This document shows, in pieces, positions 8,202-51,409 of a stretch of 64,000 nt of DNA. Numbering within the stretch: position 1 is the stretch's first letter; each line of letters opens with the position of its first letter. The position numbers and the translations under genes were made by a program. Source of the stretch: Plasmodiophora brassicae (lineage: Eukaryota > Endomyxa > Phytomyxea > Plasmodiophorida > Plasmodiophoridae); NCBI GenBank assembly GCA_039704465.1, contig JASFAU010000014.1:124001-188000 (forward strand), read 5' to 3'. Below the pieces are notes generated by a model. That model was not told the DNA's origin. It worked only from the letters and a program-made list of their open reading frames with translations, and made no database searches.

Positions 8202-8274
8202 TGTCCTCTTCGCGGATCGAACGCGAGACCTTACGATCTTCAGTCGTACGCTCTCCCAACTGAGCTAAGAAGAC
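8202..8274 (-). tRNA. trnF-GAA: tRNA-Phe (GAA), copy 1
   Basis: The 73-nt gene folds as a standard cloverleaf: acceptor GTCTTCT pairs with AGAGGAC (one G-U), a D-loop with GCTCAGTTGGGAGAGC, anticodon loop CTGAAGA (anticodon GAA), and a T-arm TCGCG-TTCGATC-CGCGA. The discriminator is A, as expected for Phe. There is no intron and no encoded CCA. A run of five T on the minus strand just downstream (8192-8196) is a Pol III terminator; A and B boxes lie in the D and T arms. Confidence 0.96.
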
Positions 8275-8793: not shown

Positions 8794-8866
8794 TGTCCTC
8801 TTCGCGGATCGAACGCGAGACCTTACGATCTTCAGTCGTACGCTCTCCCAACTGAGCTAAGAAGAC
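8794..8866 (-). tRNA. trnF-GAA: tRNA-Phe (GAA), copy 2
   Basis: Identical in sequence to the copy at 8202-8274 over all 73 nt, with the same anticodon loop and A discriminator. The minus-strand sequence just after the 3' end contains TTTT (8786-8789), a minimal Pol III terminator. Confidence 0.96.
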
Positions 8867-11689: not shown

Positions 11690-11762
11690 TGTCCTCTTCG
11701 CGGATCGAACGCGAGACCTTACGATCTTCAGTCGTACGCTCTCCCAACTGAGCTAAGAAGAC
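11690..11762 (-). tRNA. trnF-GAA: tRNA-Phe (GAA), copy 3
   Basis: A third 73-nt copy identical to those at 8202 and 8794. On the minus strand a run of six T directly follows the discriminator region and serves as Pol III terminator. The chitin synthase gene separates it from the other two copies. Confidence 0.96.
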
Positions 11763-29745: not shown

Positions 29746-30673
29746 TTACTTTGATTGCCGGTACATCCGCGACTGGACGATGATGAGAACGTCGAAGGCG
29801 AGCGTGCCGATGCTGCCGAGCAGGTACGGGAGCTTCTTGACGCAGAACTCGGCCCAGAAGTTGTCCGTGACGACCGGCGCGGCTTGCTCGATGACGGCGT
29901 CGACGATGATCCGCAGGCCGTACGTCGTGTTCGCCGCCACGAACAGCATGAACATGGCCGGGGACAGGTCGTCGCAGCGCTTCTCCTGGTAGTTCTTGAC
30001 GACCTGAGGGATACGCGCGAAAAAGAACAACGCATTGCCGAGCCAGGCCAGGACGGTCCCGGTCGTCGTCACCCAGAACGCCAGATTCTCCTCGGGAACG
30101 CAGAGCACCTTGTTGTCTTGGAGCAGCGTCCTGGACGCAGCCGATGACGGTACGGTCGTGGACGTGAACGACGACAGGGTTCCCGTGGTGAACAGCGCAA
30201 CGCCGAACAGAGCAACAGCCGCCTTCCTCGTCGCCGACGTCCTCGCGCCGTATCGCTTCGGGTAGACGCGGTTGTAGTAGTACATCTGCGACAGCATGAC
30301 GGCGTCATCGAACAGGAAGTACCCGCCGAGGACAACCATGGTCAGCGGCTGCTGCAACAGGACACTTGATATGAAGTTCGAAATGTCAGCGACGGCGCGG
30401 ACGACGATGAACGCTGCCGATAGCGATTCGCAATGCTTGTTGCGGTAGTTGCGCCAGTACTGAGGCAGGCCTGCCGTCATCCATGCCAGGATGGACAATA
30501 CGCCTGCAAGGTGACGTCAGGACGCGGCGTACGGCACAGACGGGGAACGACGAACCCAGCATTGACGGGACATATTCGAGCGGCGTGTAGACGCATTCGC
30601 CAAAGACGGTCCCCATGAACTGAGAGTACCGGTACCCATTCTTGTAGATCGGTTCGCATTCACACCACGCCAT
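29746..30673 (-). CDS. PQ-loop membrane transporter (SLC66/YPQ-like)
   Basis: Two exons (30673-30556, 30503-29746) with a 52-nt intron encode 291 residues. Two PQ-loop motifs are present: AGLPQYWRNYRNKHCESLS and ARIPQVVKNYQEKRCDDLS, each followed by the usual helix pair. The splice restores SMLGVLSILAWM directly before the first motif. Seven or so helices are visible. The arrangement fits lysosomal/vacuolar cationic amino-acid exporters of the SLC66A1/Ypq1 group, though cystinosin- or MPDU1-like PQ-loop proteins cannot be excluded. The ATG at 30673 (MAWCECEP) was chosen because the further upstream start codon is TTG. Confidence 0.8.
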
Positions 30674-31638: not shown

Positions 31639-33918
31639 TCAGAGGACGTCACCATTGTGGCAACGCTGTTGGATGAACGTAGACATCTCGGCGTGGCGCG
31701 CGCTGACGACTTCCATGAAAAGCCTTTCGACGGTTCGGATACAATCATTACTGCCATCATCATCAAGGACTTGCCACAAGGTGACCTCCGACAGCATGTT
31801 CAAGAACGTGCGGTTCTTGAACTTGTCACGAGCGTCCACCAACCGGCAAAAGTCGTCCAACGACGCCAACCTGATGTGTAGAGAAATCACCATCTGGGAC
31901 AACTTCTCCATCAGACCGTCTAGGTGCTGGCGCCAACGGTGGAACACGTCGACGTCTCTGACGTGAACGGCGTAACGAGTCGCTTCGTAAACAGTATGCG
32001 CAGCCGTATGCAGGATCGTCCAGCCAGCAGGAACGTCTCGGTGCACTACAACCTCATTCAGAATGCCCAGGCGTTTCCCTTGTGCCAGGACAATCTCAAC
32101 AGCAGGAAGACCCATCATGACCGCCCAGTGGATCACTGACAAACCGTCATAGCACCCGAGAAGGAATCTCTGAAGGACCCCGTCGCCCCTACGATTCCGA
32201 ATCAAGTTCAGCGTTGTGGCGAGCGGTTCGGCGCGAGCTTTGGAAAACAAGATGGCCGCATGGTGGCGGTTCACGCGGGATGGAAGAGGCGGTGCCAGAT
32301 GGGAGATGATCAAGGTCGTCGAAGGGGGCCGCGACAAGAATGCGACTTTGCCTCGAGGACTGCCCGCACAAGCCACCATCGCGACTTCGTACGAAGACAT
32401 GGTCCTATTGGCGGCTGCCAGCACTGCCACGATGGGTACGACGTGTTGTTCGTGACTGGGGCTCCGCATCCAGAATTCCATGCAGGAGTCGCCTTTGACA
32501 ACGCGTTGCAACGCTCCCCAGATCCAGTCCCGGCTTGATGCACGACGCAGGATCCATTTAACGATGTGGCCCGTCATGCACTTCTTATGGAAGATTGTGT
32601 ACCCGTCTTCGTTGACGTGACGTAAAGCCGCCTGGACTTGGTCGTCGGTCGCGTGTCGCACTAAGCGATCCAGCACGGTCACGGGATCAGCTATGCCGCA
32701 CACGAAGAGATTGGTAAGTGCAGAGACACCAGGGCCACTGAGGATCACAGTGTCATCATCGAACATGGCCAGCAGCTGGCGAACAGGGAGCCGGTTGGAG
32801 AATTCATCTCCAATCGCGAGGGCAAGAACGCGACGCTTCCAGTTACGCTCGTCAAACCCGTCCCCGAATCGTCGGCGAAGAGCGCCCAAACAGGTTTCCA
32901 GCAGGACCGGTTTGTTGTCATTCGGCAGTCTCAAACGCCGTCTCAGGGGCTCGAAATGGAGCGCAAGTCCCCAGTAGGAGTAAGCGAGGAAGTCATCGTC
33001 TGCCTCCAGAAACGTCATCAAATGCTCCGCGAACGTAAATGCCTCGTCGCTGCCCGCGGTGTACCCTCGAACGCCACCGCTGTAGGAATGTGGGTTCATG
33101 TCAGAACCCAGCATTATGAGCAGGTTCGCCGCGCGGAAATAGCCTTCAGTTGTGGCTGTGTCCAGGAGACCGGTAATATCCATTCCGTGTGCCACCATGA
33201 CCTTCAGTAGGTCAAAGTCCAGGTCGCCATTCCGGATCTGCTCCTCAATATCGCAGTACGCCAGACCAGATAGGGCCATTCGCACCAAGTTGCGGTGGTG
33301 TTCAGGAAGCAGTTGCAGCAGAGCAGACGTAATACTGTCTCGTTCGTCGTACGGGACGGGGAATTTGTCAGACGCGGCAATTCGTTCGGATGCTGACGCC
33401 GCGTAGGCGTCAAAGCCTGCGACATCAAGAAAAGAGATAGAATGTTGGCGAAGGAACTGAAAGGCGCGCAAAGCTCGTTCCCGGTGCTGGATGTCAGCAC
33501 TCCGTTGCGATGTGTGTCGTATAGCAACTCCAAGGGCATATCCGTCAGCCAATCGCCAATCGACGACAATCGTCTTGAGCATCATCCGGAAATGGCCTGC
33601 ATCAATGTCATGGTCACCGTTGAGCAGATGGTCAGGGAGTAGGATCTGGGGGCGCAACGGCACCCGGCGATGGAGACATTCATGGATCCATTCCGCAGAT
33701 GGATCGCGAAGATAGTCGATGGCGTGGGGATCCTCGAAGTACGACAGAAGCGTCGTAAGGTTGGCTTCCGGTTTGAACAGCATCTCCCACTGACGCCTCG
33801 AGGTCAGGTCGGGTTCAAAACATGTCGTGAAACGATCGTGGGTGTCATCATCAACGCGGGCCGTGCGTCCAATTGCCACCACGCTGAACGCAAGAACGAT
33901 GACGCGAGTGAACGCCAT
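31639..33918 (-). CDS. Secreted protein with degenerate ankyrin-type repeats
   Basis: Starting at the ATG at 33918 the product has 759 residues and opens with a signal peptide (MAFTRVIVLAFSVVAIGRTA); the frame allows 11 more N-terminal residues from 33951. There is no transmembrane segment later. Helical repeat pairs resembling ankyrin units are scattered through it, for example LLDTATTEGYFRAANLLIML, DGLSVIHWAVMMGLPAVEIV and AGWTILHTAAHTVYEATRY. A secreted ankyrin protein could be an effector acting on a host or a surface protein. No catalytic motif was seen. The family is unknown, but the signal peptide plus long open frame make the gene itself likely. Confidence 0.65.
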   Translation of the reverse strand: MAFTRVIVLAFSVVAIGRTARVDDDTHDRFTTCFEPDLTSRRQWEMLFKPEANLTTLLSYFEDPHAIDYLRDPSAEWIHECLHRRVPLRPQILLPDHLLNGDHDIDAGHFRMMLKTIVVDWRLADGYALGVAIRHTSQRSADIQHRERALRAFQFLRQHSISFLDVAGFDAYAASASERIAASDKFPVPYDERDSITSALLQLLPEHHRNLVRMALSGLAYCDIEEQIRNGDLDFDLLKVMVAHGMDITGLLDTATTEGYFRAANLLIMLGSDMNPHSYSGGVRGYTAGSDEAFTFAEHLMTFLEADDDFLAYSYWGLALHFEPLRRRLRLPNDNKPVLLETCLGALRRRFGDGFDERNWKRRVLALAIGDEFSNRLPVRQLLAMFDDDTVILSGPGVSALTNLFVCGIADPVTVLDRLVRHATDDQVQAALRHVNEDGYTIFHKKCMTGHIVKWILRRASSRDWIWGALQRVVKGDSCMEFWMRSPSHEQHVVPIVAVLAAANRTMSSYEVAMVACAGSPRGKVAFLSRPPSTTLIISHLAPPLPSRVNRHHAAILFSKARAEPLATTLNLIRNRRGDGVLQRFLLGCYDGLSVIHWAVMMGLPAVEIVLAQGKRLGILNEVVVHRDVPAGWTILHTAAHTVYEATRYAVHVRDVDVFHRWRQHLDGLMEKLSQMVISLHIRLASLDDFCRLVDARDKFKNRTFLNMLSEVTLWQVLDDDGSNDCIRTVERLFMEVVSARHAEMSTFIQQRCHNGDVL

Positions 33919-35041
33919 CGGAATTCCGGAATGAAGCAGCCTCCGCCACATGCACGCGCGCCGACCACTGCGGATCGGGTCGAACTTCGGTGCCCCGAAA
34001 TAGAATCCGGGGTCGCGGACTTCCGTGGACGGCGCGACTCACGAGGTGGAGAAAGGTTGGGCCCGAGACGCGGACGCCCGTTTTGTCCGCCCAGCGCAGA
34101 GGAGACCAATGATGCAGTACGTAGATCGAATACATTGACGACATACGAAGGATGGCAGTTCCCTACAGGCCGCCGGCAGGTACGACCGCATCGACAGGGA
34201 CGCGGTCGCCCGATCCGATCTGGCCGACGTGCCGGCCGACGCGCTCCGCCCTTGCGACCCACCAACAGCGCCCGTCAGATCAGGGCAGTGGGCGTTGGCG
34301 TCCGTGAGCAAGCTGACAACCGACCACGTGCGGCTGGTCCCCAGTGCTCGTACTTTACCGCCATCCAGTCTCGTTCAGGATGCCCTGTCCCGGACGCGAG
34401 TTCAAACCCGGAAAGGCGTCCGAGCGGTCGTGTCCAGGCGGTAGGCGGCATCCGACATAGGACTGCTGGGGAGGACTTGTTCTGCAGGCGCGGGTCGTGA
34501 ACGACAACGACAGGAGGGTTCGACTCGGCCTGGCACCTGCCGCAATCGGCAACGGCTACCGCGAGATCATCGTGGATGCGACTGCCGTACATGCGGGCAC
34601 CTTCCGATGGGGAAGTGCCTCGGGACGACTCGGCAATGTCGAATTGTAAACGCCATCGCTGACGAACTAGTATTCAACAACTGTACATTCTGGTGGTTCG
34701 ATGGTGGAACAGTACACAACGACAGCCACAGTTCGGTGCCCCTCGATTGTCTAATAGCCCCGCAGTCTCAACCGTTCTTCCACATGAATGAATGGCTGTC
34801 ATCAACGCGACAAGCATCAGGAGGCTGCTCGACAATATCCGATTCGACGTCGGGACAGCAGGAGGGAAGTGGTATCCCGACAGTGTGCACTATCAGCTGA
34901 CCGATGTGCATGTTTTCTGGGCGTGTACAGGGTTGTGTGCACCAATGGTCACCTTGACCGTTGGAGATGGCTGGCAATACCTGGGACCACGACTCGAAGG
35001 ATTGCCCGCCTCTGCTCCGCATACAAGAACATTGTCGTGCA
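33919..35041. other. Region without a confident gene
   Basis: Several plus-strand frames read through 34160-34660 (containing DVPADALRPCDPPTAPVRSG and REIIVDATAVHAGTFRWG) and 34690-35030. They cannot be joined into a convincing protein and match no family I know. A small spliced gene is possible. Confidence 0.3.
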
Positions 35042-38000
35042 TTATTCTAGTAGAAGTCTCGCCGCCTCATCCTGGTCGGCAAACGGGTCCTCGAGCGGGA
35101 CCACCGGAGGCGATGCCGCTGGATGCTGCTCCTGCGGCTGCTGCTGCTGCTGGTCGTGATGGCCCACCGCGAATCCATCCCAGGAGGGCATTGCCGCAGG
35201 GGCCGGCACCACCGGGTCGTCTTTCCCGTCGGTGTCGCTGTCGCTCGTAGCGTTGCCCGAATCCCTCGTCGACGACGACATGCCGGAGCCGACCCCGGAC
35301 CCAACGACGACGTCGTCGGAGGCGTTGGCGAGGACCGCCATCGTGACCTGCCCCAGGGCGACGCCGCCGGCGTCGTCCGTGCCGACCTGCTTGGGCGACG
35401 ACTCGATCGTGGCGCCCGACTGCCGCACGAGCCGTTTGGCGAACAGCGACCCGCGCCGGATGGCGGTCGGGGGGACGCCCCCGGGCAGGGCGTCCTGGCG
35501 GTCGTCGCCGTCCGCCTCGTCGTTCTGCTCGTCGACCTCGGCGACGAGGTTGTCGGCCTCGGCGCCCAGGCCGCTGCTCGTGCGGCGGTGCCGGACGGCG
35601 CCGCTGCCGACGCGGCGGTGCTGGCCGATGGCGGCCGTGAAGCGCTTGGCGGCCGACGCCGCCTTCATCAGCCCGTTCACCGAGTTGATCGCCGTGCTCG
35701 ACGGCGTGTCGCGCGTGAACTCGGACGACGGGAACGGGTCCGTCGCCAGCCGCACGAAGTAGGTGACGTCCGACGGCAGCAGCGCGATCGTCCTGGCGAA
35801 CGCCAGCAGCGCCTGCTGCCGGCCGACCGCCCGCTTGACCTGGTTGCTGCAGTGCAGCAGGTTCGGCGGGCACGACAGCGCCAGGCGCGCCGCCGAGTCC
35901 ACCTGCACACGCGCACGCGTCTCAGACGTCGTCGTCACGCCCGTCTCCGTCTCTCTCTCACCGTCCCGCCGAACACGGAATGGCGCAGGCGCATGCCCGG
36001 CAGGATCGCCGACAGCAGGCCGCCGACGTCCATGCCGCCGGCCACGTCGAGGCAGCGCTCGGGCAGGTCGCCCCTGGACGCCTGCAGGTCGCCCGCCCGT
36101 TTGATCATCCTCAGCGCCGCCTGCCGCATCGTCACCAGCTGGCACACACACACACCGCACACACCGCACACAGACCTGGATCGTGCTCGTCAGGCGCATG
36201 CGCCGGTCGGTGTCCACGTCGGCGTCCGGCTTCGTGGCGCCGCCCGCGTCGTCGTCGTCGAACTCGAACTCCTCCTGCGCGTGCCGGAGCCCGCACACGA
36301 AGACGAACGACCCGCCGGCACTGGTTCGCAGGGCGTCACCGGTGAGGGGCGGGCGGTTGCACCGGCCGCGCGCGCACACGTACCTCAGGACGTGGATGCA
36401 CGAGTACTCGTGGCAGATGGAGACCCAGTCCTCGAACAGGAGCGAGATGATGCTGATGGCCTCGTGCGGCGCCGCCCGGAACCGGTCGATCAGGGCGGGC
36501 AGGCCGACCAGCTCGACCTGCGCCACCGACACGTTGTTGCAGAGCCAGCCGCGCGGCTCGAACGACGTGTCCAGCGCGCTGGCGATCGGCCGGGGCACCA
36601 GCCTGACGCGGAGAGAAGTTAGGCTGGCGCGACACGCGTCGGACGCGCGACCCACCTGGGAAGGATGCTCTTCACCGTCTGCCTGTGCTCGTTGCCGAGC
36701 CACTCGAGGAAGAAGTGTTGGCGGACGGTGCGCTCGCGAGCGTAACTGGCGACGACGCTACAGGAGACGGCGGCGAGGTACACGCCGAGGTACAGGGCGG
36801 TCAGCGGCCAGGCGAACCGCAGGACGACCAGGTAGTCGAGGACGAAGACGACCGCGAACGACAGCCCTGGACGGCGACACACACACACACACAACGTCAG
36901 CGTGGCGGCGCAAGGCGGCGACACAACAGCGGGAGGGCCCCCACCTAGGACGGCGCATTGCACGAACCTCAGCCCGTCCACGTCGAGCGTCGCCGTGCAA
37001 TGCGCGACGGCCAGCAGCGTCGTGACGAGGTTGGGCCGCGCGTACCGGTTCCGGCTGGTCAGCAGGGCAATGTACCCGAACGCCTATACGACCGTCAAGA
37101 TCGGGCGCGCCCCACCCGGCCCTTCCTACGTTAATGGCCTGCAGGGCGATCTGGAACACGTAGACGCCGGCCGCGAACCGGCCCTGCTCCAGGAACCGGG
37201 TCAGGCGGGCGCTCCACACCGGCGACTGAATGAGGGCGCTCAGGCCGCCGCCCATCACCTGCACAGCACGCGCGGTCAGTCGACCTCGATGAGGGCGCGC
37301 GCGTGCCAGGGCGCCCGACCAGGTACAGGAACAGCAGCGTGAACCCGGCGGCGTCGAACCCGAAGAACAGGTTCGTCAGCAGCTCGATGACGCCCAGCGC
37401 CAGCGCCTTGTCGTACCCGGCCGCCAGGCGCTTCACCAGGCCGTTCCCGACGTACCTGCCAAAGTCGTCCTCCAGCGTGGCCCTTTACGCGGGCGGTCAA
37501 CGCGGGCACACACACACGTACGACGACACGGGCACGCACCATGGCATCGTCTTGAACGCGCTCGACTCCACGATCTGGTTGACGTCGTACCGCAGCGTCC
37601 ATCTGTGACACCGCTGCCCTGGTCAGCATTGCGACAGCGCGGGCGACGAACGCACGTCTGCCCCCGACCGGTGCAACGGGACGTCGATCGCCTGCAGGCT
37701 GGCCTGTCGGGTCGGGGTCAGCGAAGGGTGCACGTCAATCGACAATGGGAGCGCCACCATACGTCTTGTTCCTCGAGGCGGACGTGGACGCCGAGGTGCT
37801 TGACGTACCCGTCCGTGTCGATGGCGCGCTCGATGTGGTCGAACTCGGCCTTGACGGGTCCGACCAGGCGGTAGACGTGCCGGTGCCCGTCGGTGAACGC
37901 CAATCGCAGCGACGCGCGCTTCGCGTCCTCGTCGTTGTTCCCGTCCACTGTGTGGCAGGGGCGGCCATCAGCGAGCGATCAGTGAACCGCCAGGCGCCCC

Positions 38001-41000
38001 CGGGGGGCGTACCGTGCGCCAGGCGGTACGGGTCGTTCGTGTTCATCAGCGGCAACGACGGGTTCTGCGCGTGGTGCAGGCGGTCGAGCGACTTGAGGTA
38101 GTTGCCAAAGTCGAGCGCCTGCGCCACCGAGTTGGCCAGGCCCGCCTCGATCATGAAGGCGACGGCGTCCCGCCCCAGGAAGCAGTTGTCGAAGGCGGCC
38201 CCCTTGTACAGGCGCGTCTCGAAGCGCAGGTTGTTCTGCAGGCCCAGGGCGAGCGCCTGCGCGTCGACGCGCTCGGCGCTGTTCAGGCGGAACAGGGCGC
38301 GCCGGCCGTCGCGGAACGGGCGGCGCGGGTCGATCGCGTCCTGCAGGAAGCTCCTGGCCGTCAGGTAGGACGCGATCTCGACCGCCTCATCGCGGCTCCC
38401 GGCGAGCTTGTGCGCCAGGATCAGGTCGACGCAGGCGGCGCCGGTGAACGTCTTCGGGTAGGCGCGGCACCAGCGCTGGTGCGTCGCGACCGGCAGCGCC
38501 CGGCGGATCGTGCGCACGACCCGCTTCAGGTCGACGTCGGGCGCGATCCGGAACCGGTACCACTCGCTGGCGCTGTCCACGAAGTCGCGGTCGGCGTCGA
38601 CGGCCCCGACGATCACGTTGTGCATGCGCAGGGCGCTCCCGAGCCGCACCGCATCGAACCTGTGCGACACGCGCGTCACGTGCGTTCGTCGACGAAGGGC
38701 GGGCGCGCGACGCACCTGCTGACGCAGGCCTCGTTGCTGACCAGCAGGTCGACGACGTCGCTGCCGGTGAAGCATCGGCGAACGGTGCGCAGGCCCAGGC
38801 AGCGGCGCCGGTCGGCGATGGTCAGCCGCGAGCGCAGCATGGCGACGACGGCCTCGCTGAACGGCTCCGGTTCCGGTTCGGTCGGGCCCGCCGCCGCGTC
38901 GGTCGTCGTCGTCGTCGCGCCCGACCCGCTGTCATGCGACGACAGGCGCGTCAGCGACGGCGCTGGCTCCCGGTTCCTGGACGACGCGCGCTGCTCCGAC
39001 TCGGACCCGCCCGCCTTCTTCGGGAACGACACGGGCCGGGCGACGTACGCGTGCCGGACGAGCTGGTAGGTCGTCGCCGAGATGAAGATCTGGCCGGCGC
39101 CCGCGATCGTCTGCAGGGAGCGGGCGCCGCGCATCGCGTCCCCGAAGACGGACGTGTAGATCCTCGGGGGGATCGCGTCCGTGTCGGCGACGTCCCACTC
39201 GGGCAGGGCCGCCCGGGCCGCCCACCCGCTGTGCACGCCCATCGCCAGCGTCAGCATGACGCCGAACAGGGCGTGCGAGACGCGCGGGTCGTTCAGCTCG
39301 GCGAGTTGCACGGCGACGCGCGCCATCTCCACCGCCTGCGATGCGGTCAGCAGCCGAGGCAGCAGCAGCAGCATCACACGCGCCCCTGACCGAGTCGGAC
39401 GGCGATTCGTTGTGCCCAGCGGACGCGACGAGCAGGGCGCCCTGGCCGGCGCCCATCACCGAGCAGTGCGCCTCGATGCGGGCGACGTTGCGCTTCAGGA
39501 CCGTCTCGATGATGTCGTGGACCTTGCTGAGCAGGGCGATCGCCTGCGACGGCGTCCGGTGCTGGATCAGCCGGGGCAGGTTGTCGATGCCAACGACGAG
39601 GACGGTGACGTTCGGCGACACGATCGTTGGGGCGCGCGACAGGACGCGCGCGACGTACTCGCGGAACTCACTGATCATGCGAGCGGAGAGCAGCGCCGCC
39701 CGCTTCTCCGACACGGTCGTCATCGTGTGGCCCGCGTTCGGCACCATGTCCTGGACGACGGACGTCGACAGGTGGAACGCCAGGCGGTACCGGCGCTCCT
39801 GCAGGAACAGCAGGCGCTGGCGGCGCTCCCACGCGTAGCAGGTGGCGCCGCCAGCGACGGCGACGATCGCGTACATCAGGTCGAACAGGACGGCCTGGAC
39901 GGGCGTGACCGCGAAGTACAGGTCGGACCAGGCCATGCCGATGAACGCGGCGTTCATCGTGACGGCGTCGAACGCGACCAGGGCGACGCCGTCGACGAAG
40001 GCCAGCGCGAACTGCGTCAGGACCAGGAACGGGTACAGGAGCGCCGGCAGCAGGCCGACGAACGCCGGCAGGGTCAGGTCGCTCTGACGCCGGGCGGCGT
40101 CGTCGCCGATCGCCGCCGCCGTCGGCCACATCGTCAGCGTCTTGATGACGGACAGGCCCACGAGGAGCAGGGCGACGTTCAGGCGCGTGGGCCCGCCCGA
40201 CCGGAACCTGGACAGAGGGGCACAGGCAGGCCACGTCAGCAGCCAGCAGAGCGGCCCGCTCGAGCGCGCGCGCGCACCGGTCCAGCAGGGTGACGATGCC
40301 GCCGATCCAGCCGACGACGAGCAGGGCGCGGGGCGTGGCGAGCGGCGCCCCCTGCAGCATCTCGAACGGGCACTCGGCGAGCAGGGCGACGGCTAGCAGG
40401 AACAGCTTGACGCGGACGACGGCGAACAGGCGTCGCTCGCTGATGCACCGGAACGACGCCTCGCGGTCGTCGCAGTCGGCCCGGGCCCGGGACGCCATCA
40501 GCGGGTCGGCGCCGTCGCCGACCGCCGCCTGGAACCGCAGGGTCGCCCTGGCCAGCCGCATCGTGTAGACGGTCAGCGGCTGGGTGGACGGCGCCGCGAA
40601 GTTCTTCACGGACGCGCGCCTCGTCGACGCCTCGTTCGTCGACGCCGACGGCGACTGCATCATGAAGAAGGTGGCGATGGAGGAGCGGCGCCCGGTCGAG
40701 TCGGTCGTCGTCGCGTTTGACATCGTGCTCGTCATCCGCTGCACGATCGACATGCGACGGGCGGGCGCGTCCCCCGCGGCCGCCTGCGTTGCCGCGCCCG
40801 CTAGGCCCTTCAGCGCCGTCGTCGTCGTCGTCGTCGTCGACGTCCGGCGGCCGGCCAGCAGGTCGCGACGGGACTGGGCCTGCACCGACAGCCGCCGAAC
40901 CGAGATGTTGTCCGCCGTCCGCTCCACCGCCTCCGTGATCGTCGTCGTCGAGCTCGACAGCGACGTGTTCCGGTGGTGCTTCGGCTCGGGCGACGCGGTC

Positions 41001-44000
41001 GGCGGCGGCGGCGCCTGCCCCGTGATCCCGTGCCAGACGCGGTCGTTCAGCAGGGTGAACGCGCCGGCGATCCGGTCGGCGATGCAGGCGCTGACGGCCA
41101 GGCGCGTCTCCGCCTGCGGGATCAGCCGCATGCGCAACGTGGCGTAGACGTCGGCGAACGTCACCGACGGGTCGATGGCCTTCGCCAGCACCAGCGACAG
41201 GCGCAGGCGCCGGGCGCAGTCCTCCAGCGACTTCACCTGCCAGGCGACGTCGTCAGCGGTGCGGGCGCGGGGCCGGGCGCCGCCCCCCGAACCTTCTCGA
41301 TGAACGACGGCGCCAGGTGGTAGCGCAGGCGCGCGAACGTCCCGTCGATGACGAGCGTGGCGGCGACGACGAGCGCGGCGATGGCGGCGAAGTACAGTGT
41401 GTTGCGGCCCTCGATGGCGTCGCCGTAGAACCGCACGTCGAGCGACCCGGCGACGGTCAGCCACAGCGTCATGATCGTGATGGAGACGCCGGTGATGAAC
41501 AGGTAGTTGAGCGAGAACGTCCCCGACTGCTGCATGACCTTGAAGTTGGCCGTGCAGGTCGCGGCGACGTACACGAGGATGCCGGTGGCGTACAGGCTGC
41601 CGACCGTGTTGTTGTCCAGGGCGGACGTCTGCAGCAGCGCGGGCGTCTTGGTGAACCCCATCGACTCCAGCGCGTTGATCGACGCGAAGCACAGGACGAA
41701 CACGACCATGCCGTGCAGGATGCCGTTCGCGACCGCGCGCAGCGTGTGCCCGATGCCGAACTCGCTGCGCTTCGTGCCCTGTTTCGCCACGTTAGCCTGG
41801 GGCATGGACGATCCCGACACACGTACGCCATAGAAGTAGACGCGCGCGTCCGCGTCGCACGTGTCGTCCTGGACGTCGCGGTCACGGGCGCCCAGCACCA
41901 GCAGCGTCAGCGTCGTCATGAACAGGTTGAACACGTCGACGAGGACCTCGGGCATGTAGAAGACGCCGCTGAACCCGTCGAACAGGCCGTGGACGAACAT
42001 GCAGATCGGGACCAGCATGACCTTGTAGGTGCAGATGCGGGCGACGAGGCACAGCCGATGGTAACTCCAGTGGCCGTGCACGAGCACGAGCCGCGGCAGC
42101 ATGTGGAACCGGGGGATCGTGTAGTCCGCCATCAGCACCGCCTCGTTCGCGTTCGTCAGCGACACGTTGCCGACGGCGACGCCGACGTGCGCCTCCCGCA
42201 TCATGGCGATGTCGTTCGCCGACCTGGCGACGCCCAGCGTGATCGCCTGTGGCGCTCCCCGGTTAGAACGTCAGCGGGCCAGCGCGCGTCAATGCGCACC
42301 TGATCGGCGACGATCCATCGCAGGCAGTAGACGACGCGAGCGAGGTGGGCGCGCAGGCGGGCGATGTGCAGGCGGGCGCGGGCGCGTACGCCGACGCCAG
42401 GCTGCTGCAGGGCGTCGTGGACGTCGCGCAGGGTCTGCTCGGCGATGTCGACCCGCAGGTGGCCGCCGCGCGATTTCACGAACCGGATCATGCGGCGCTT
42501 CTGGGCGGGCGAGCACGACCCGACAATGATGCATTCGCTGCGGTCGCACAAGGCGAACATGATCGGCGACATGACGCTGTCGTTCAGGACGAGGTCCATG
42601 GCCGTGCTGTCCATGATCACGGCGGTCGGCTCCGCCTTGGGCTGGTTCAGGTACCTGGCCGCGTAGTCGTTCAGCTCGACGCGCAGCCGGTCCGACACCC
42701 GCTTCATCTTCTTCAGGTACGCCTTGTCGGACAGCTCGGTGGCGGCCCGGTCCGCCATGGCCGCCGCGTGGATCTCGTCGAACGTCTTCTCCGGGGCCGG
42801 GTTCCTGGGGTCCACGTCGGGGTCGTCGGGCACCGGGTCGCCGACGCGCCTCTCGTTGCGCAGCGTGGCGCTGACCTTCCCCGGGGCCGCGTCCAGGTCG
42901 CTGAACAGCGTCAGCTCGTGCATCGACGGGCGCACCAGCCCGGTGGCGTACGCGGCCGACGCGGCCATCTCGGTCGAGTCGCAGCTGGACACCCAGATCT
43001 TGATCCCGGACGACTGCAGCCGGGTCAGGGCGGGCGGCACCGCCGCCGGGATGACCTCCTCGAAGGCGACCAGGCCGACGAACCTCAGGTTGCACTCGAT
43101 CGTGTCGGCCAGGTACTGCAGTGTGGACAGGACGGGGCTGGCGTCGACCTGCAGGAGGCGCTCGCGGGTCATGGGGTCCTCGTCGGCCCACTGCGGGTGC
43201 TTCTGGTCCAGGTTGCGCGCCTTGAGGTACAACGGGTACCAGACGTTGTAGAAGAAGCAGAGGGGGACCTTGCGTTTGGCGAAGACCATGGTGCTGAACC
43301 CCTGCTGGCGGTACCGCTCGATGGCACCGGTGACGTCGTACGGCTGGCGGTGGACGTCCACGCACCGGTCGATCATGTCCCGCGCCCAGCCTTTGCAGTA
43401 CACCCAGACGTCCTCGTGGCCGTACCTGACAACGACGGACGACCGCCCGCGCGACGATATCGAACTGATGGCCAGGACCTCGATTTCGGCCGACGTCTTT
43501 GCGATACGATGCCCCTGGTTGATCGGGACGATCGCCAGGTGGATGACGGGGCCTTTGCGCGCCTTGAACTCGTACCCGAACGACTTGGCCGATTCGACCA
43601 TGGCGACCTCGTACGGCGACGACGACCGGTACGAGAACTCCTTGTTGTAGAAGTGCTCGTCGCGCTTGATCTTCGCCTCCAGGTCGAGCTTGTCGCGCGG
43701 CAGCTTGATCCTCGACGTCGCCGAATGGCAGATCGCCATCAGCGTCAGCATGAATTTCGCGTTCGCCGAACGGGCGTCGTCCCCATGCCAAACGTCGTCC
43801 ACAATGTCGGCGAACTGCTGGTTCTCTGCGACGACGTGTGAGCGCACGACGGCACACCCGCCCAGGACGTGCAAATGACGTACCTCTGACGAACGTGTGC
43901 TTGCCGGCGTACTCGAGGCCGTTGACGTTGATGCGGGCCACCTGGACGTTGCCGGACGTCATCAGGCCGTTCTTCTCGCAGAAGATGTGCTCGACCTGGC

Positions 44001-46373
44001 CGAGGTCGGCGCTGACGTTCGAGTTGATCATGCTGGCCTTGTTGGTGAGCTTGTGGGCAATCTCGCGCATCTTCGCGTCGAGCGTCACCGAGACGCCCTG
44101 CGACGTGGCGACCAGTTCGAGGATGACCCAGACGGAGACCTCCAGGACGCCGTACATGAAGAACCACCAGCTATATGGGATCAGCAGCTGACTGGTTTCG
44201 CTCGCGCCCAGATCCATGTGCCAGAAATTCACAAAGTTGACGGGCTGCGACAGGCCCAGGAACTCGATCCACGACGGCAAGTTGATGAAGAACTGGCCTT
44301 GCGAGAACAGCGTGTTGCCAACGACGCTGAACGCGGCGAAGAACGAGGACAGGCCCAGAAGGAACACGGCGACGCGATCCAGGGCTTTCATCAGGTGCGA
44401 ACGTTTGACGGGGCACCACCCGTTGATCCAGTTCTGGGCGACCTTCGTTTCGTGGCCGGCGTACACGATGACGCCAATCGCCGACGCCGTGTACGCCAGC
44501 TTCGTCCCACGAAGCACCAGGTTCATCATCGACAGTTTCTCCACGTGCGAATACGGCTTCCCCGGGTCTCGCCCCAACTCCTCCTTCAGCACCCGCTTCA
44601 CCTGCCCCGGGACGTTCATTCGATGTGCACCAGTACAGATTCCGCCTTCCACAGAACCTTTGGCAGCTGCTCTAACGGCATGCCTTTGCAGCGTTCCGTT
44701 TCTTCCCGTTGCATCTGACCGGCCGCTTCTCGGACGTCGACCCCGATCGACCCTGTGAAGGTCTCCAGATCCGGACCAGGTCTATCGCATCTCAGCGCGC
44801 CTGTTGGACACGTGAGGTGAACAGCACGGGCAACGACATTCGGCTTGGACCGACCTTTCAGACGGCGCAGGCAGGTCCCCGTTTTGAAGATCGACGTGAT
44901 GTCCACCGTGCGCTTCAGTTTGTAATTGCAATCCCTAGAAATCCAGCGGCGGCCGAGTGAGTACGCTGCCACAACCCGGACAGAGTCGGTACCCGTCAAT
45001 GTTGGAAGTGTCGACGAAGCATTCGCTATCGTGCTGGCCTTCGAGAGGTTCGGTTGCGAGCAGGATCATATCGGCCGGGAAGCTCTCGCCGTCGAGGACT
45101 TTGACAATGTCGCCAACGACCATGTCGCCCCAGGCCATCAGGACGAAGCTGCTCTTCGTGGACACCGCCCGCAACTGATTCGGGTCCAGGACCAGCGAGC
45201 GCTTCATGTTCTCTTGTCCGTCTCCCCAGGCACGCTTCAGGTCTTCCGACAGCTCCTTGACCATGCGTACGCCGACCCAGATCAGAAACTGGTATTCCAG
45301 CGACAGGAACGACGACTGGTAGGACACGGGATTGTACATCTGCAGAGGACGTCACGGGCGATTCCTCAGGGGATGGCCCTGCCGACCGCTGCTTACGTTC
45401 ACCAAGATCAGGACGATGAAGATGATGTTGATGGGTAGCAGCATCTGTTCTAGGAGACACAACGGGACGAACGTCGCCACGCTATACCTCGCCGTCTGCA
45501 TGGAGTTCCGCGCGAACCTGTCACGAACGTAAATCGTACTGGCCCTGGATAGATGAGCGTATTGTGGGTACCCCTGGGCGCCGTTCCGCAGCCTGTCATC
45601 AAGCATGACGGTTCTCACGGCTGCCCCGTTCGCTTGCAGGATCGTGTCGTCGAATTTCGGCTTCTTCCTAGCGTTCAGCACCATTTTCTATCCCGGCGAG
45701 TCAAGAAACGGTGAACGGACGAGATGAACGCCGGCGCCCCCCGACCTTCTCGAACGCGATCATTCCCTTGGCGTGGCTCTCCTCCAGATCAAGGTAGCTG
45801 AAGCTGCCGTCGGACTCATGGCCGCTCTTCCTATCCAGAGAGATCAGAGAAATGGGCATTCACGACCACCGGATCACGTCCTACGAGTGTTCGGTAAGCG
45901 TGTCGTGCTCCACCGAATCATGGCCGCCACCTCCATGACGCGTTGACTGATGATCGCCACCGCCATGCTGCTGGGGGTGGCGGTTTCCACCACCGTGACG
46001 AGTCGATTGCTGGTTATGCTGTTCGACGTGTTACACGTCGCTGTTCGGAACCGTCTTCTCGTACGTACCTGGGCCTCAGAGTCACGCCCGCCTTGACCTA
46101 CGCATCCGTATCAGCAACCGGGTTACGGGTGATCTTGGCCAAGATCGTACCATGGGCCTTGTAAACGCTGCGGGCATCGGCAGTGGATCGCAATTGGTCG
46201 CTTCGGCTCTGGAAGGCGTGGGCGTTGCTGTTGCCCGTGGTAGATGCTGTGTCGGTGAGCCGTGACTTGATGCCCTTCGTCCGATGCTTGAACTGTTGCG
46301 CGGCAAGTTGAGCGATCGATTCGCTTTTCTTCTTCGCCGCCTTGGCGGTCACGTTCGCGCTTGCATTGGACAT
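35042..46373 (-). CDS. P4-ATPase-like / triple DEP / tandem cyclase-like fusion protein
   Basis: Twenty-four exons keep one frame open for 3,338 codons: 46373-46151, 46097-46069, 46018-45885, 45830-45746, 45687-45397, 45339-44993, 44934-44658, 44601-43884, 43825-42300, 42246-41293, 41236-40278, 40207-39391, 39335-38716, 38659-38013, 37947-37763, 37703-37669, 37602-37540, 37482-37320, 37258-37130, 37083-36945, 36866-36656, 36602-36176, 36138-35962, 35902-35042. Domains: His/Gly-rich leader (1-157); P4-ATPase module (about 190-1500) with NSMQTARYSVATFVPLCLLE, TSNIDGDCNYK, VEHIFCEKNGLMT, GIKIWVSSCDS and LVHGHWSYHRL; helices (about 1700-2000); cyclase-like 1 (from 2047); DEP1-3 (about 2280-2545; FTGSDVVDLLV, TFTGAACVDLIL, CFLGRDAVAFMI); second helix cassette (about 2640-2810); cyclase-like 2 (2873-3090); acidic/polyQ tail. 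Alveolate P4-ATPase-guanylate cyclases share the core order without the DEP insert. Catalytic motifs are degenerate throughout. Confidence 0.88.
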
Positions 46374-47901: not shown

Positions 47902-49321
47902 TTACTGGACAAGCCGCTTGTGGCAAAGGCTGGACACGGCGAGGGCGAACGCCGTCATGACGGAGAACGGCGCGGCGAAATCGATGTGGTATGCGCCTGC
48001 GCGCGTGTGCATTAGTGCACACGTGACGGGTGCCGACATCGTGTGATGGGTCATCACCTTTGGAGAGCTTGCCGAACTGCAGCAGGATCGAATCGGCTAT
48101 CGATGGGCAGGGTGTGAGTGCGACGAACCGGTGAGATTGCGGGTGACGTACGCGTGTGGGTTCGAATCATCTGGAAGTTCTTCTTGCTGGCCGCCTTGAC
48201 GTACTGCCCAAAGTCGAGGCAATGCCCGCCGATGGCTGACGAGAGCGCTGTCAGTGTATCTGTGGGTGAACGAGCGCCTAAAACCATCACATCACCATGG
48301 TTCCAGACGGGAGGCTTGTTGACGATATGGCATTCCGGACGACGCGTCCTTTCGTTCAGTGTCCGGTCCAGATCGATTGTGAACTGCCTCGGCTCGGCAC
48401 CCATCATGTTCGTTTGGTATGAGATCACGCAGAGTTCCACACGCCGGTGCACGGGCACGGGGACCTCTTCGCCAGCAACACGGACACCATCATCGTACAA
48501 TGTGAACATCGTCCCCGACAAGTTCCCGACGAGGCTCCCAGCGTAACTCGCACCGTGTCGCTCGCATCCTTCCGTCCCTGCGCTGAACACGAGCTCGGAT
48601 GTCGTTGTACTGTACGTGGCAACCAACAACGGGTAATCGTTCTGGGACAGCGTGTACGATAGGCGGTCCGGGGAGCGCTCCACACGCCCGAAGAACCGTT
48701 CTTTCTGTTTCCTGGCAGGAGATCGTTGGCGAACAGATCCACTTAAGTCGAGAATGCCGCACGACGTACTGTGTCAGTAGAACCGTCCTTGCATGGGACC
48801 TGGTACCGGCCAGGAGGATAGACGAGTACGGGATCGAGAACGCGCCTTGTTTCAACGCATCGCCGGTGGCGATGATAGAGTTGGTATCACCCCGCTCAAC
48901 ATAATGCAAGGCGAGCCAGCGATAGCAATGCTCCAGTAGGTCAACGTCGTTCCACAGGCTGGCATAGTGCCCAACCTGCATTATGGTCGACCTGGATAAC
49001 CTGTCGATGACTGCCTTTCTATATTCGGCGAACAGCGCATCCAGACCGAGCAGACGGCTCGTGATCAGGGCGGGCAACGCATCCGCGTCATGGTCGACCT
49101 TGAAACAATGGCACCGATCAAGATCTGCACATCGTTCGCGACGTAAGCGAAGAGATTGGCATTGCTAACGACAGAAACATACGGCTGGCGATGCTCAGAA
49201 ATACGAAGAACGCTCGATGTGAAGGAACGAAGACGTCGAATGTGCCCCGGGGGATACCCGGCATGTCTCGAAGCACGTTATCGCGAATGGCAATTCTGGC
49301 TGCGCGTGAGAATGTCGCCAT
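47902..49321 (-). CDS. Tubby-domain protein
   Basis: Five exons (49321-49205, 49164-48770, 48711-48152, 48096-48058, 47996-47902), with introns of 40, 58, 55 and 61 nt in matching phase, encode 401 residues. The C-terminal half is a Tubby domain: YAGSLVGNLSGTMFTLYDDG, CVISYQTNMMGAEPRQFTID, HIVNKPPVWNHGDVMVLG and AASKKNFQMI. The last two small exons supply the closing SILLQFGKLSK and the hydrophobic central helix PFSVMTAFALAVSSL. Tubby domains bind phosphatidylinositol 4,5-bisphosphate and act in membrane trafficking, often to cilia. The N-terminal half is unfamiliar, with helical SLWNDVDLLEHCYRWLALHY resembling a BACK-like stretch. The start at 49321 is the weakest part of the model. Confidence 0.82.
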
Positions 49322-49951
49322 TTGTACGCAAGTGTCACTGATTCCCGACACGCTCGACTGTGTTCGGCGTGAGCGGGAGATCAGGGCAGACGGGGGCGAT
49401 CACGAACCAACGCCTTTCCTGGCTGGGCTCGCCGCCGTCGCGTTCTCAAGTTGATCACCGTCGGACACCCTTCGTCATGTCTCTCCTGTTCGCCCTTCCG
49501 AACCAGGAACCGGTAGTAGACCGGCTCGCCTGACGCCATCTCTGTAGCAGCAAGAGTAACCCGACGAGTGCCCCAACGCGGGGACCGTCCCAGAAAAGGC
49601 CAGCAGAACCTGCAGTCATAAACGTCGAACCAAAATGGAACAACCCGAGGCTGCACTCGCGGCTCGCGTCGACCGTAGCTGCAGTTGGCGAGCTGCACCC
49701 CCTCAGCGCCTGACGTGGCCACGTAGCTCCACGGCATGTTGCAGCAGTGGACTTGCAGCTGCAGTCACGTTCACTGGGTCTACAGTGGTGAACTGCACCC
49801 CCACCCTGGTGAACTGCACCCCCCACCCTAGTGAACTGCACCCCACCCTAGTGAACTGCACCCCCTACCCACAGCGCCGCGTGGCCCGTGGGCGTCTTCA
49901 CGGAGGGCACTGCGCGCGACAATGCGCCACGGCGACAAGCGCCATGCCGTC
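49322..49951. other. Intergenic region with short tandem repeats
   Basis: No supported gene. It contains the direct repeats listed separately and several GAGCTGCACC or GCAGCTGCAG elements that also occur at about 490-600 in the window. Confidence 0.5.
49786..49870. repeat. Four direct repeats of about 20 bp
   Basis: Four tandem units GTGAACTGCACCCC followed by ACCCT or a variant (starts near 49788, 49809, 49831 and 49852), directly upstream of a PPR gene. Units vary in the number of C. Confidence 0.85.
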
Positions 49952-51409
49952 ATGGCGCGACTGCTCGTCGTTGCGTCGCGACCGTTCCACGCGACGGCAC
50001 GACCATCGTCGATGGTGGACGATTTCCTGCGCAGGCCCTCGATCGGGCTGGCCGCCCGGATCCTTCTGCTCCGGGATGTCAGGCCGGATGACGGATGGAC
50101 GGTGTTCTGTCGGGTGATCGATTGCCGACTGGGCCCGCGTGCGCCGTTCTTCCAGCGCATGATGGAATTCTGTAAACGAGCGCTACCCAGCAAGGCGCCC
50201 GACGTAATGCGCGCCGCCGTCTGTAATGGCATTCCTGTGAGAAGAGACGAAACGCTGTTCATGACGTTCCTGGCGGCGTGCAAACTCGCGAACCCGCCCG
50301 CTATGAAAGAGGCCATCGACCTGTACCGACAGTGCGGCCCTCGATCGCGTAACGTCATCAACAACCTCGCCGTGATGTGCCGCGCGTCCAAGCACCCGGA
50401 ATCGGTCATGTTCCTTTTGTCCGACGCCATTGACAACAACGTTCAGGTCGACGCTCCCCTATTCTCCATGTTCGCGGCCGCTTGCGCTGAAGAAGAACGG
50501 CTCAGTTTGTCGGCCGGGGACGCCGCCGAACGCCTTCTCGGTCTGGTTCTTTCCAAGGGTGTTGCTATGCCCAACATCAGGGCGCACGATCTCGCCAGTC
50601 TCATGCAAGTGCTGCTGCGCCAGGATCGGTTCGACGCCGCCATCAAGGCGTTCCAACTGACGAACGCGCTGGATCGCCCGCCGTCGAAGCAGATGTGCAC
50701 GGTTCTCGTCACCGAGTTAACCAGAGGCGAATGCGTTCCAGAGGCCATGGCCGTCGCTGATCTCATGTCTGGACGAGGCGTCCCTTTCACCGAGGGTGCA
50801 TTGACTTCGTTGGTTGTCGTTTGTGGCAGTCATGGCGCCTTCGCTTCACTCCAGAAGCTGCACGAATACGCAAGCGGGGGCCATGCGTTGTCGAAGAACG
50901 TTGGTGTCATCAATGCGTTCATCGCCGCCTATGGCAGATGTTGCCATCCGAACGAGGCGTACAAGGTGTTCCGGTCCGTTGCCATGCCAGACCCATCCAC
51001 GTATGAAGCCATGATTACGGCGTTCGTCAGGAACGGGATGGCCGACAGAGCTGACGAGGTCCTGGACGAATTCGAGTCGACAACTGGCGCGGTGACGAGG
51101 GAGGCGCTCGGCAACATAATATCAGCGTTTGCCGAAGCGGATCTCGTTGCCAGCGCCATGCGGCTGTTTGTCGAGTTGGTGGAGCGTGACCTGCGTGCGG
51201 GCACTGCCGAGCTGGTCTGCCTTGTATCTGCCTGCGGCCGTAATCGCGACCTGGACACTCTCCACAAACTGCGTCAGTTCGCCAAGCAGAACGGCCTGTT
51301 ATCGGGCGAACCGGTCGCCTCTGCTTTCGTCTCCGCGTACCACCAGTGCCATGGCTCCACACCATCACGCGACGCGCCCGCGTTCGTTCGCGATCAGGAA
51401 GTCCCGTGA
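49952..51409 (+). CDS. Mitochondrial PPR protein without DYW domain
   Basis: An intronless protein of 485 residues if it starts at the ATG at 49952, where MARLLVVASRPFHATARPSS looks like a mitochondrial presequence (an ATG at 49922 would add ten residues). Helix-turn-helix PPR units fill the rest, for example VGVINAFIAAYGRCCHPNEA and TYEAMITAFVRNGMADRADE. Its first 150 residues align with those of the DYW protein at 20267-22849: WTVFCRVIDCRLGPRAPFFQ against WAVFQRVLTSSRRLAPCVPF. The protein ends shortly after the last repeat (DAPAFVRDQEVP) with no E or DYW extension. It may bind organelle RNA for stability or translation, or need a partner deaminase supplied in trans. Confidence 0.82.
   Translation: MARLLVVASRPFHATARPSSMVDDFLRRPSIGLAARILLLRDVRPDDGWTVFCRVIDCRLGPRAPFFQRMMEFCKRALPSKAPDVMRAAVCNGIPVRRDETLFMTFLAACKLANPPAMKEAIDLYRQCGPRSRNVINNLAVMCRASKHPESVMFLLSDAIDNNVQVDAPLFSMFAAACAEEERLSLSAGDAAERLLGLVLSKGVAMPNIRAHDLASLMQVLLRQDRFDAAIKAFQLTNALDRPPSKQMCTVLVTELTRGECVPEAMAVADLMSGRGVPFTEGALTSLVVVCGSHGAFASLQKLHEYASGGHALSKNVGVINAFIAAYGRCCHPNEAYKVFRSVAMPDPSTYEAMITAFVRNGMADRADEVLDEFESTTGAVTREALGNIISAFAEADLVASAMRLFVELVERDLRAGTAELVCLVSACGRNRDLDTLHKLRQFAKQNGLLSGEPVASAFVSAYHQCHGSTPSRDAPAFVRDQEVP

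Follow-up and report, generated by a model that had tools for sequence, protein, structure and literature searches.

The reason for the fusion of a flippase with a guanylyl cyclase is an open question, and a locus of Plasmodiophora brassicae raises it in an unusual form. We analysed 64,000 nucleotides (nt) of this genome (contig JASFAU010000014.1, positions 124,001 to 188,000 of the forward strand; the whole stretch is called the window, and position 1 is its first letter), in which a minus-strand gene, the core gene (45859..35042), is predicted to join a P4-ATPase (flippase-like) module, helices, a cyclase-like domain, three DEP domains, further helices and a second cyclase-like domain in one polypeptide. 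What would such a protein do? We propose that it is probably a pseudo-flippase/pseudo-cyclase, which may act as a membrane scaffold or sensor and would signal through binding instead of catalysis. It has the domain order of the alveolate fusions plus three DEP domains, and neither enzyme module would work.

Exon structure and reading frame of the core gene

The sequence-based model of the core gene comprises 21 GT-AG-joined exons that form a single frame of 3,220 codons, with no internal stop and a terminal stop at 35042. Exons 1-7 lie at 45859-45746, 45687-45397, 45339-44993, 44934-44658, 44601-43884, 43825-42300 and 42246-41293; exons 8-14 at 41236-40278, 40207-39391, 39335-38716, 38659-38013, 37947-37784, 37703-37669 and 37602-37516; and exons 15-21 at 37482-37320, 37258-37130, 37083-36945, 36866-36656, 36602-36176, 36138-35962 and 35902-35042. 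The chain was obtained by a splice-aware Viterbi search, local choices then being set by homology and frame. It was edited by hand in four places, and one 30-nt 'intron' (41826-41797) was read through. Specifically, the first exon was extended upstream to the ATG at 45859, the exons at 45687-45397 and 44934-44658 were each kept whole where the Viterbi chain had excised flippase-like sequence, and the last exon was carried on to its natural stop.

The 20 introns are 33-80 nt long, 14 of them 53-66 nt. Ten hold an in-frame stop, and retention of nine others would shift the frame. The remaining one (36944-36867, 78 nt) has no stop and its retention would leave the frame whole, so that only coding score and splice sites argue for its removal. 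A first-pass annotation, made from the sequence alone, had stated that every splice either completes a conserved block or bridges a stop, which was slightly too strong in view of this intron. Four profile matches (PF16209, cyclase 1, DEP 1 and cyclase 2) extend over splice junctions.

On the minus strand the best exon chain reached a score of 1273. The opposite strand gave 292, and the scores of 12 dinucleotide-shuffled sequences lay between 3.6 and 7.4. Because the coding/splice model was trained on this same gene, held-out tests weigh more. A coding model from the ATPase half scored the other half at 570 and the reverse test gave 360 (splice matrices were taken from all 20 introns), while leave-one-exon-out coding scores placed the chosen frame top of six in 21/21 exons. 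This holds for the first four as well, where the scores themselves are near zero or negative (-1.6, -3.0, 5.9 and -29.5). Reading through an intron gave a negative coding score in all 20 cases. Collectively, frame, coding signal and profiles support a single predicted gene encoding, in this order, ATPase, helices, cyclase 1, three DEP domains, helices and cyclase 2.

The first-pass annotation had described 24 exons and 3,338 codons, beginning with a His/Gly-rich leader. Of this, 21 exons and 3,220 codons in one GT-AG frame stand, and the leader exons (46373-45860, minus strand) found no support: within the limits of the script there are 335 joins that stay open, and in three candidate exon stretches, of which two overlap, the coding score is below zero whichever frame is read. 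For these two reasons the possible leader, a prediction only, was excluded from the gene model. Since one accepted 5′ exon also scores -29.5, the negative scores of the leader mean a lack of support rather than a disproof.

Domain order and catalytic residues

The P4-ATPase module covers residues 88-1404 approximately (41308..45540; all features of the core gene are on the minus strand). TIGR01652 (NCBIfam) matched at 4e-130 with 435.4 bits, exceeding its cut-off of 431.25 by 4 bits, and Pfam searches of the spliced protein gave PF16212 at 1e-32 and PF16209 at 2.9e-8; PF00122 and PF13246 matched the ATPase part below their cut-offs. A search of solved structures (PDB) with this part found flippases at E 5.5e-63. 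Its hydropathy profile has 13 peaks, nine of which could be placed at the ten expected helices, helix 2 remaining below threshold. Intron 41292-41237 joins the ATPase to a Ser/Thr/Arg-rich linker (40484..41236), which leads to a first helix cassette with five hydrophobic peaks over threshold (39814..40441). The degenerate cyclase-like domain 1 follows (residues 1927-2095; 39054..39615). Its PF00211 match (E 1.7e-4, 21.7 bits) falls just below the cut-off of 21.9; it also aligns to a soluble guanylate cyclase at E 0.057, and a profile built from eight cyclase domains of the same genome recovers it at E 0.00086.

PF00610 matched the spliced protein in three stretches (1e-33, 115.5 bits, cut-off 32.7). 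DEP 1 (residues 2173-2244 approximately; 38551..38825) is split by an intron and matches at full length once spliced; in an exon-by-exon genome search its first exon part alone reached 24.0 bits, below the cut-off, which DEP 2 (38287..38496, 46.2 bits) and DEP 3 (38023..38229, 34.6 bits) exceed. The exon with DEP 2 and DEP 3, folded alone, gave a mean predicted local distance difference test score (pLDDT) of 38.7. Beyond the DEP domains lie a second helix cassette (36748..37517), with four hydrophobic peaks over threshold, and the strongly degenerate cyclase-like domain 2 (residues 2750-2985 approximately; 35750..36553). PF00211 matched the C-terminal half only of the latter, at 14.5 bits (E 0.027) in the protein and 17.9 bits (E 0.0025) when the domain was searched alone, both under the cut-off; the N-terminal half aligns to domain 1 at a BLASTP E of 0.099. 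No cyclase was among the 6 matches, up to E 10, of a solved-structure search with cyclase 2. A weak Peptidase_C33 match in the last part of the protein (E 0.038 and 0.012) has a score close to that of the cyclase match and was attributed to chance.

The profiles and the single frame thus bore out much of the first-pass annotation, namely a P4-ATPase module followed by two cyclase domains in one polypeptide, with cyclase 1 and the second cassette set apart by three DEP domains. Its two cyclase domains were both matched by PF00211, albeit below the cut-off and weakly for domain 2. The reading of these modules as working domains did not survive inspection of their catalytic residues.

ATPase motifs were judged by HMMER alignment to the solved flippase 6k7g, which we take to be ATP8A1. 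The phosphorylation motif DKTGTLT is replaced by CEKNGLMT (43957..43980) and the actuator motif SNxDGET (SNLDGET in 6k7g) by SNIDGDC, which spans an intron (44928..45006). YCKGWA stands for YCKGAD (43383..43400), VSSCDSTE for xLTGDKxE (LTGDKQE in 6k7g; 42969..42992) and GVARSAND for xIGDGAND (42211..42234). In helix 4, EVSV lies opposite PISL of 6k7g, the helix-4 motif of P4-ATPases. All six motifs inspected therefore differ in the alignment, the phosphorylated Asp included, and DKTGT, DGET, TGDK and GDGxND are each lost. DKTG, DGET, KGAD and GDGxND are described as the signatures of P4-ATPases (PMC6592433).

Cyclase 1 has Gly at both metal-binding Asp positions in the alignment to soluble guanylate cyclase, and where it is aligned to a nucleotide cyclase (E 0.09), Arg-Gly-Ala-Arg-Ser faces Asn-Thr-Ala-Ser-Arg, the transition-state Asn/Arg pair becoming Arg and Ser. 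For cyclase 2, read by eye and anchored on the BLASTP alignment at E 0.099, the two metal positions are probably occupied by Glu and Gly, in that order, Asn is probably replaced by Asp, and Arg seems to be retained; the alignments behind these assignments are weak, for cyclase 2 in particular. In TgATPaseP-GC the metal Asp residues come from domain 2, and the Asn/Arg pair of the transition state from domain 1 (PMC6592433). Under the same scheme, all four catalytic positions appear altered here, with Glu and Gly in domain 2 and Arg and Ser in domain 1.

Other copies, same-genome controls and neighbouring genes

A near-identical copy of part of the gene was found in three contigs from another source. 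These carry a 768-residue reading, P0002, that aligns over 592 residues (1410-2001) of the core protein and differs at 6 of them, one being the P0002 start residue. The metal-site stretch of cyclase 1 is unchanged; P0002 ends before the second half of this domain, and the transition-state pair lies outside its span. Between exons 8 and 9, P0002 reads 24 residues in frame, where the 70-nt intron of the window would break the frame. Judged from the protein letters, the length of this intron seems to differ by two bases, as introns may and coding sequence hardly.

The genome searched comprises 25,344,181 bases in 21 contigs, and all match counts in it are lower bounds. Contig 21 (114,743 bases) is taken to be mitochondrial, since 3 kb of it contain a small-subunit rRNA of bacterial type together with ten tRNA genes. 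The ATPase part gave at least 20 matches, seven of them the core gene and 13 in seven other loci. In the stretches seen, GDGxND is present in 7/7 of these loci and DKTGT in 5/7; because the stretches do not span whole genes, the two loci without DKTGT are not evidence of loss. PF00211 gave at least 10 matches in seven loci, the core gene not among them. Five of these loci have both metal-site motifs in the stretches read, and the remaining two were partly seen. Cyclases thus occur elsewhere in the genome, as do CDC50 (at least seven matches at three places), phosphodiesterase domains (at least 22 exon-level matches) and cyclic nucleotide monophosphate (cNMP)-binding domains (at least 70 exon-level matches). 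No second ATPase-cyclase fusion was seen among these minimum counts, as P4-ATPase matches outside the core gene shared no locus with cyclase matches, and the helix-cyclase part matched only itself.

The genome searches also brought up other domain combinations. Contig C5:1184230-1190955 seemingly holds two soluble-adenylyl-cyclase-like domains and a phosphodiesterase domain in one 2,902-residue frame, a possible fusion. In contig C13, a cyclase pair (1088732-1090015) lies near a phosphodiesterase domain (1093175-1093864), in different open frames. A 600-residue open frame at contig C4:1533516-1534118 has cNMP-binding and DEP domains, and at contig C14:401361-401906 a class III cyclase domain whose metal-site motifs are intact seems to follow a PH-like domain, the latter identified by reading. 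Within the window, the core gene adjoins a 799-residue open frame with weak ankyrin matches below the cut-off (31642-34038, minus strand). Further genes are a PQ-loop repeat protein (29749-30516, minus; 1.4e-28), a protein with a Tubby-like domain (48057-48773, minus; 6.8e-15), a pentatricopeptide (PPR)-repeat protein (49838-51409, plus) and three tRNA genes with identical Rfam scores (8202-8274, 8794-8866 and 11690-11762, minus).

A putative membrane scaffold and its relation to known fusions

With the frame intact and the chemistry lost, a non-catalytic role is the most economical explanation. The flippase-like part lacks the residues forming and removing the aspartyl phosphate, and the cyclase pair appears to lack those binding the two metal ions and stabilising the transition state; absence of both ATPase and cyclase activity would be expected. 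We envisage the flippase-like part as an anchor, which perhaps can still bind a CDC50 subunit or lipid. Paired with each other, the two cyclase-like domains would offer a platform for binding, and the DEP array would hold on to a signalling partner or to acidic lipid. In this way the protein might direct the cyclic-nucleotide or lipid signals that intact enzymes encoded elsewhere in the genome produce. The scaffold role is offered as a proposal, to which we give somewhat less than even confidence. For the combined reading, in which a fusion outside the alveolates has its flippase and both cyclases dead together and persists as an intact gene with a triple DEP array serving as a membrane scaffold, we consider the balance of evidence slightly favourable.

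Several points weigh against this interpretation. Gene and protein are known here from sequence alone, and the function is deduced from what is missing. The own-genome cyclase profile gives cyclase 2 an E of 1 (1/2,000 shuffles scored higher), and one of the presumed metal-site changes in this domain, Asp to Glu, is conservative. In protein searches with residues 60-2450, none of 2,306 scored candidates reached E ≤ 0.001, and exon 7 found nothing among 8,000. The cyclase-DEP part matched 2 of 7,994 candidate proteins, each of them a fragment of the core gene. This null result for relatives is itself weak, because the searches need shared exact words and that with exon 7 also missed the core gene's own copy.

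Since the ATPase-cyclase link rests on one intron, the most serious rival is that two or three adjacent genes have been joined: a P4-ATPase gene that stops near 41233, one for cyclase 1 and the DEP domains, and perhaps another for the second helix set and cyclase 2. The link is the single 56-nt intron 41292-41237, where read-through soon meets a stop, and the path from the DEP domains to the second helix set runs via exons of only 164, 35 and 87 nt. However, this intron is of usual size, and the 102 nt between the start of exon 8 and its first ATG (41236-41135) have a positive coding score (+18.3), which makes a start at that ATG unlikely. Moreover, each of the three short exons is top of six frames, the 35-nt one by a small margin (3.3 vs 2.4), and the resulting order equals that of the alveolate fusions (PMC6592433, PMC7858053). 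We regard separate genes as unlikely. We judge it more improbable that the protein is a working, if unusual, P4-ATPase-guanylyl cyclase that tolerates altered residues. The fold is kept and TIGR01652 exceeds its cut-off, and some motifs are altered in TgATPaseP-GC and PfGC-alpha too (PMC6592433); here, however, all six inspected ATPase motifs and all four catalytic cyclase positions seem to differ.

The loss of every catalytic motif inspected would also suit a decaying pseudogene, which we rate marginally lower still. With 3,220 open codons, the chosen frame best in 21/21 exons, and P0002 nearly unchanged over 592 residues while its intron seems to differ by a non-multiple of three, the gene is not an evident wreck. 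A larger share of doubt, still a clear minority, attaches to the possibility that the fusion arose separately in Rhizaria and resembles the alveolate proteins without sharing their origin. P. brassicae belongs to the Rhizaria, and therefore either family membership would extend beyond alveolates or the fusion is parallel. The DEP insertion and a host outside the alveolates fit a parallel origin, which must then have produced the same five-part order. Because alveolates and Rhizaria are usually placed in one group, a single ancestral fusion is a simple alternative. If the pseudoenzyme scaffold is real, the fusion would be useful beyond making cyclic GMP (cGMP) or flipping lipids: a member that keeps the weld and has neither chemistry would allow structural coupling to be told apart from catalysis. 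The architecture would gain a home outside alveolates, and its DEP domains might serve to read out the state of the membrane.

In the open-licence literature we found no DEP-bearing P4-ATPase-guanylyl cyclase, as the first-pass annotation had also supposed, and as far as these searches reach the architecture would be a new variant. In these searches P4-ATPase, guanylate cyclase and DEP domain occurred together only in a C. elegans paper, and nothing was found on Plasmodiophora with guanylate cyclase, or on guanylyl cyclase with P4-ATPase and Rhizaria. The tandem-DEP proteins DEPTOR and P-Rex1 are not known to carry P4-ATPase- or cyclase-type membrane modules. By sequence they are the nearest solved structures to the DEP array (E 4e-7 and 0.0017); unlike them, the core protein would place three DEP domains in a multi-pass membrane protein. 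With P4-ATPases such as ATP8A1 and DRS2 it shares a TIGR01652 match above the cut-off and its best PDB matches; in contrast to them, its phosphorylation, actuator, nucleotide-binding, hinge and helix-4 motifs are replaced.

The closest parallel in architecture is provided by the alveolate P4-ATPase-guanylyl cyclases (TgATPaseP-GC, PfGC-alpha, PfGC-beta, and the Paramecium and Tetrahymena guanylyl cyclases), which have the same five-part order in a very long protein (PMC6592433). The core protein differs from them in its non-alveolate host, in the three DEP domains that separate cyclase 1 from the second helix set, and in the apparent joint loss of ATPase and cyclase residues. Six helices before each cyclase are characteristic of the alveolate type; the hydropathy scan of the two cassettes gave five and four peaks over threshold. 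A stramenopile has some ten two-domain membrane cyclases, with no fused ATPase mentioned in the excerpt (PMC5447177). Partial precedents for the motif losses exist: TgATPaseP-GC and PfGC-alpha show some changes, including GDGxND of PfGC-alpha, and the ATPase domain of PfGC-beta is described as degenerated (PMC6592433). In Plasmodium, the ATPase part is reported to act upstream of cGMP synthesis and the cyclase domains to retain the residues for it (PMC7858053). A degenerated ATPase would be common to PfGC-beta and the core protein, whereas the cyclase residues kept in Plasmodium appear to have been lost in P. brassicae.

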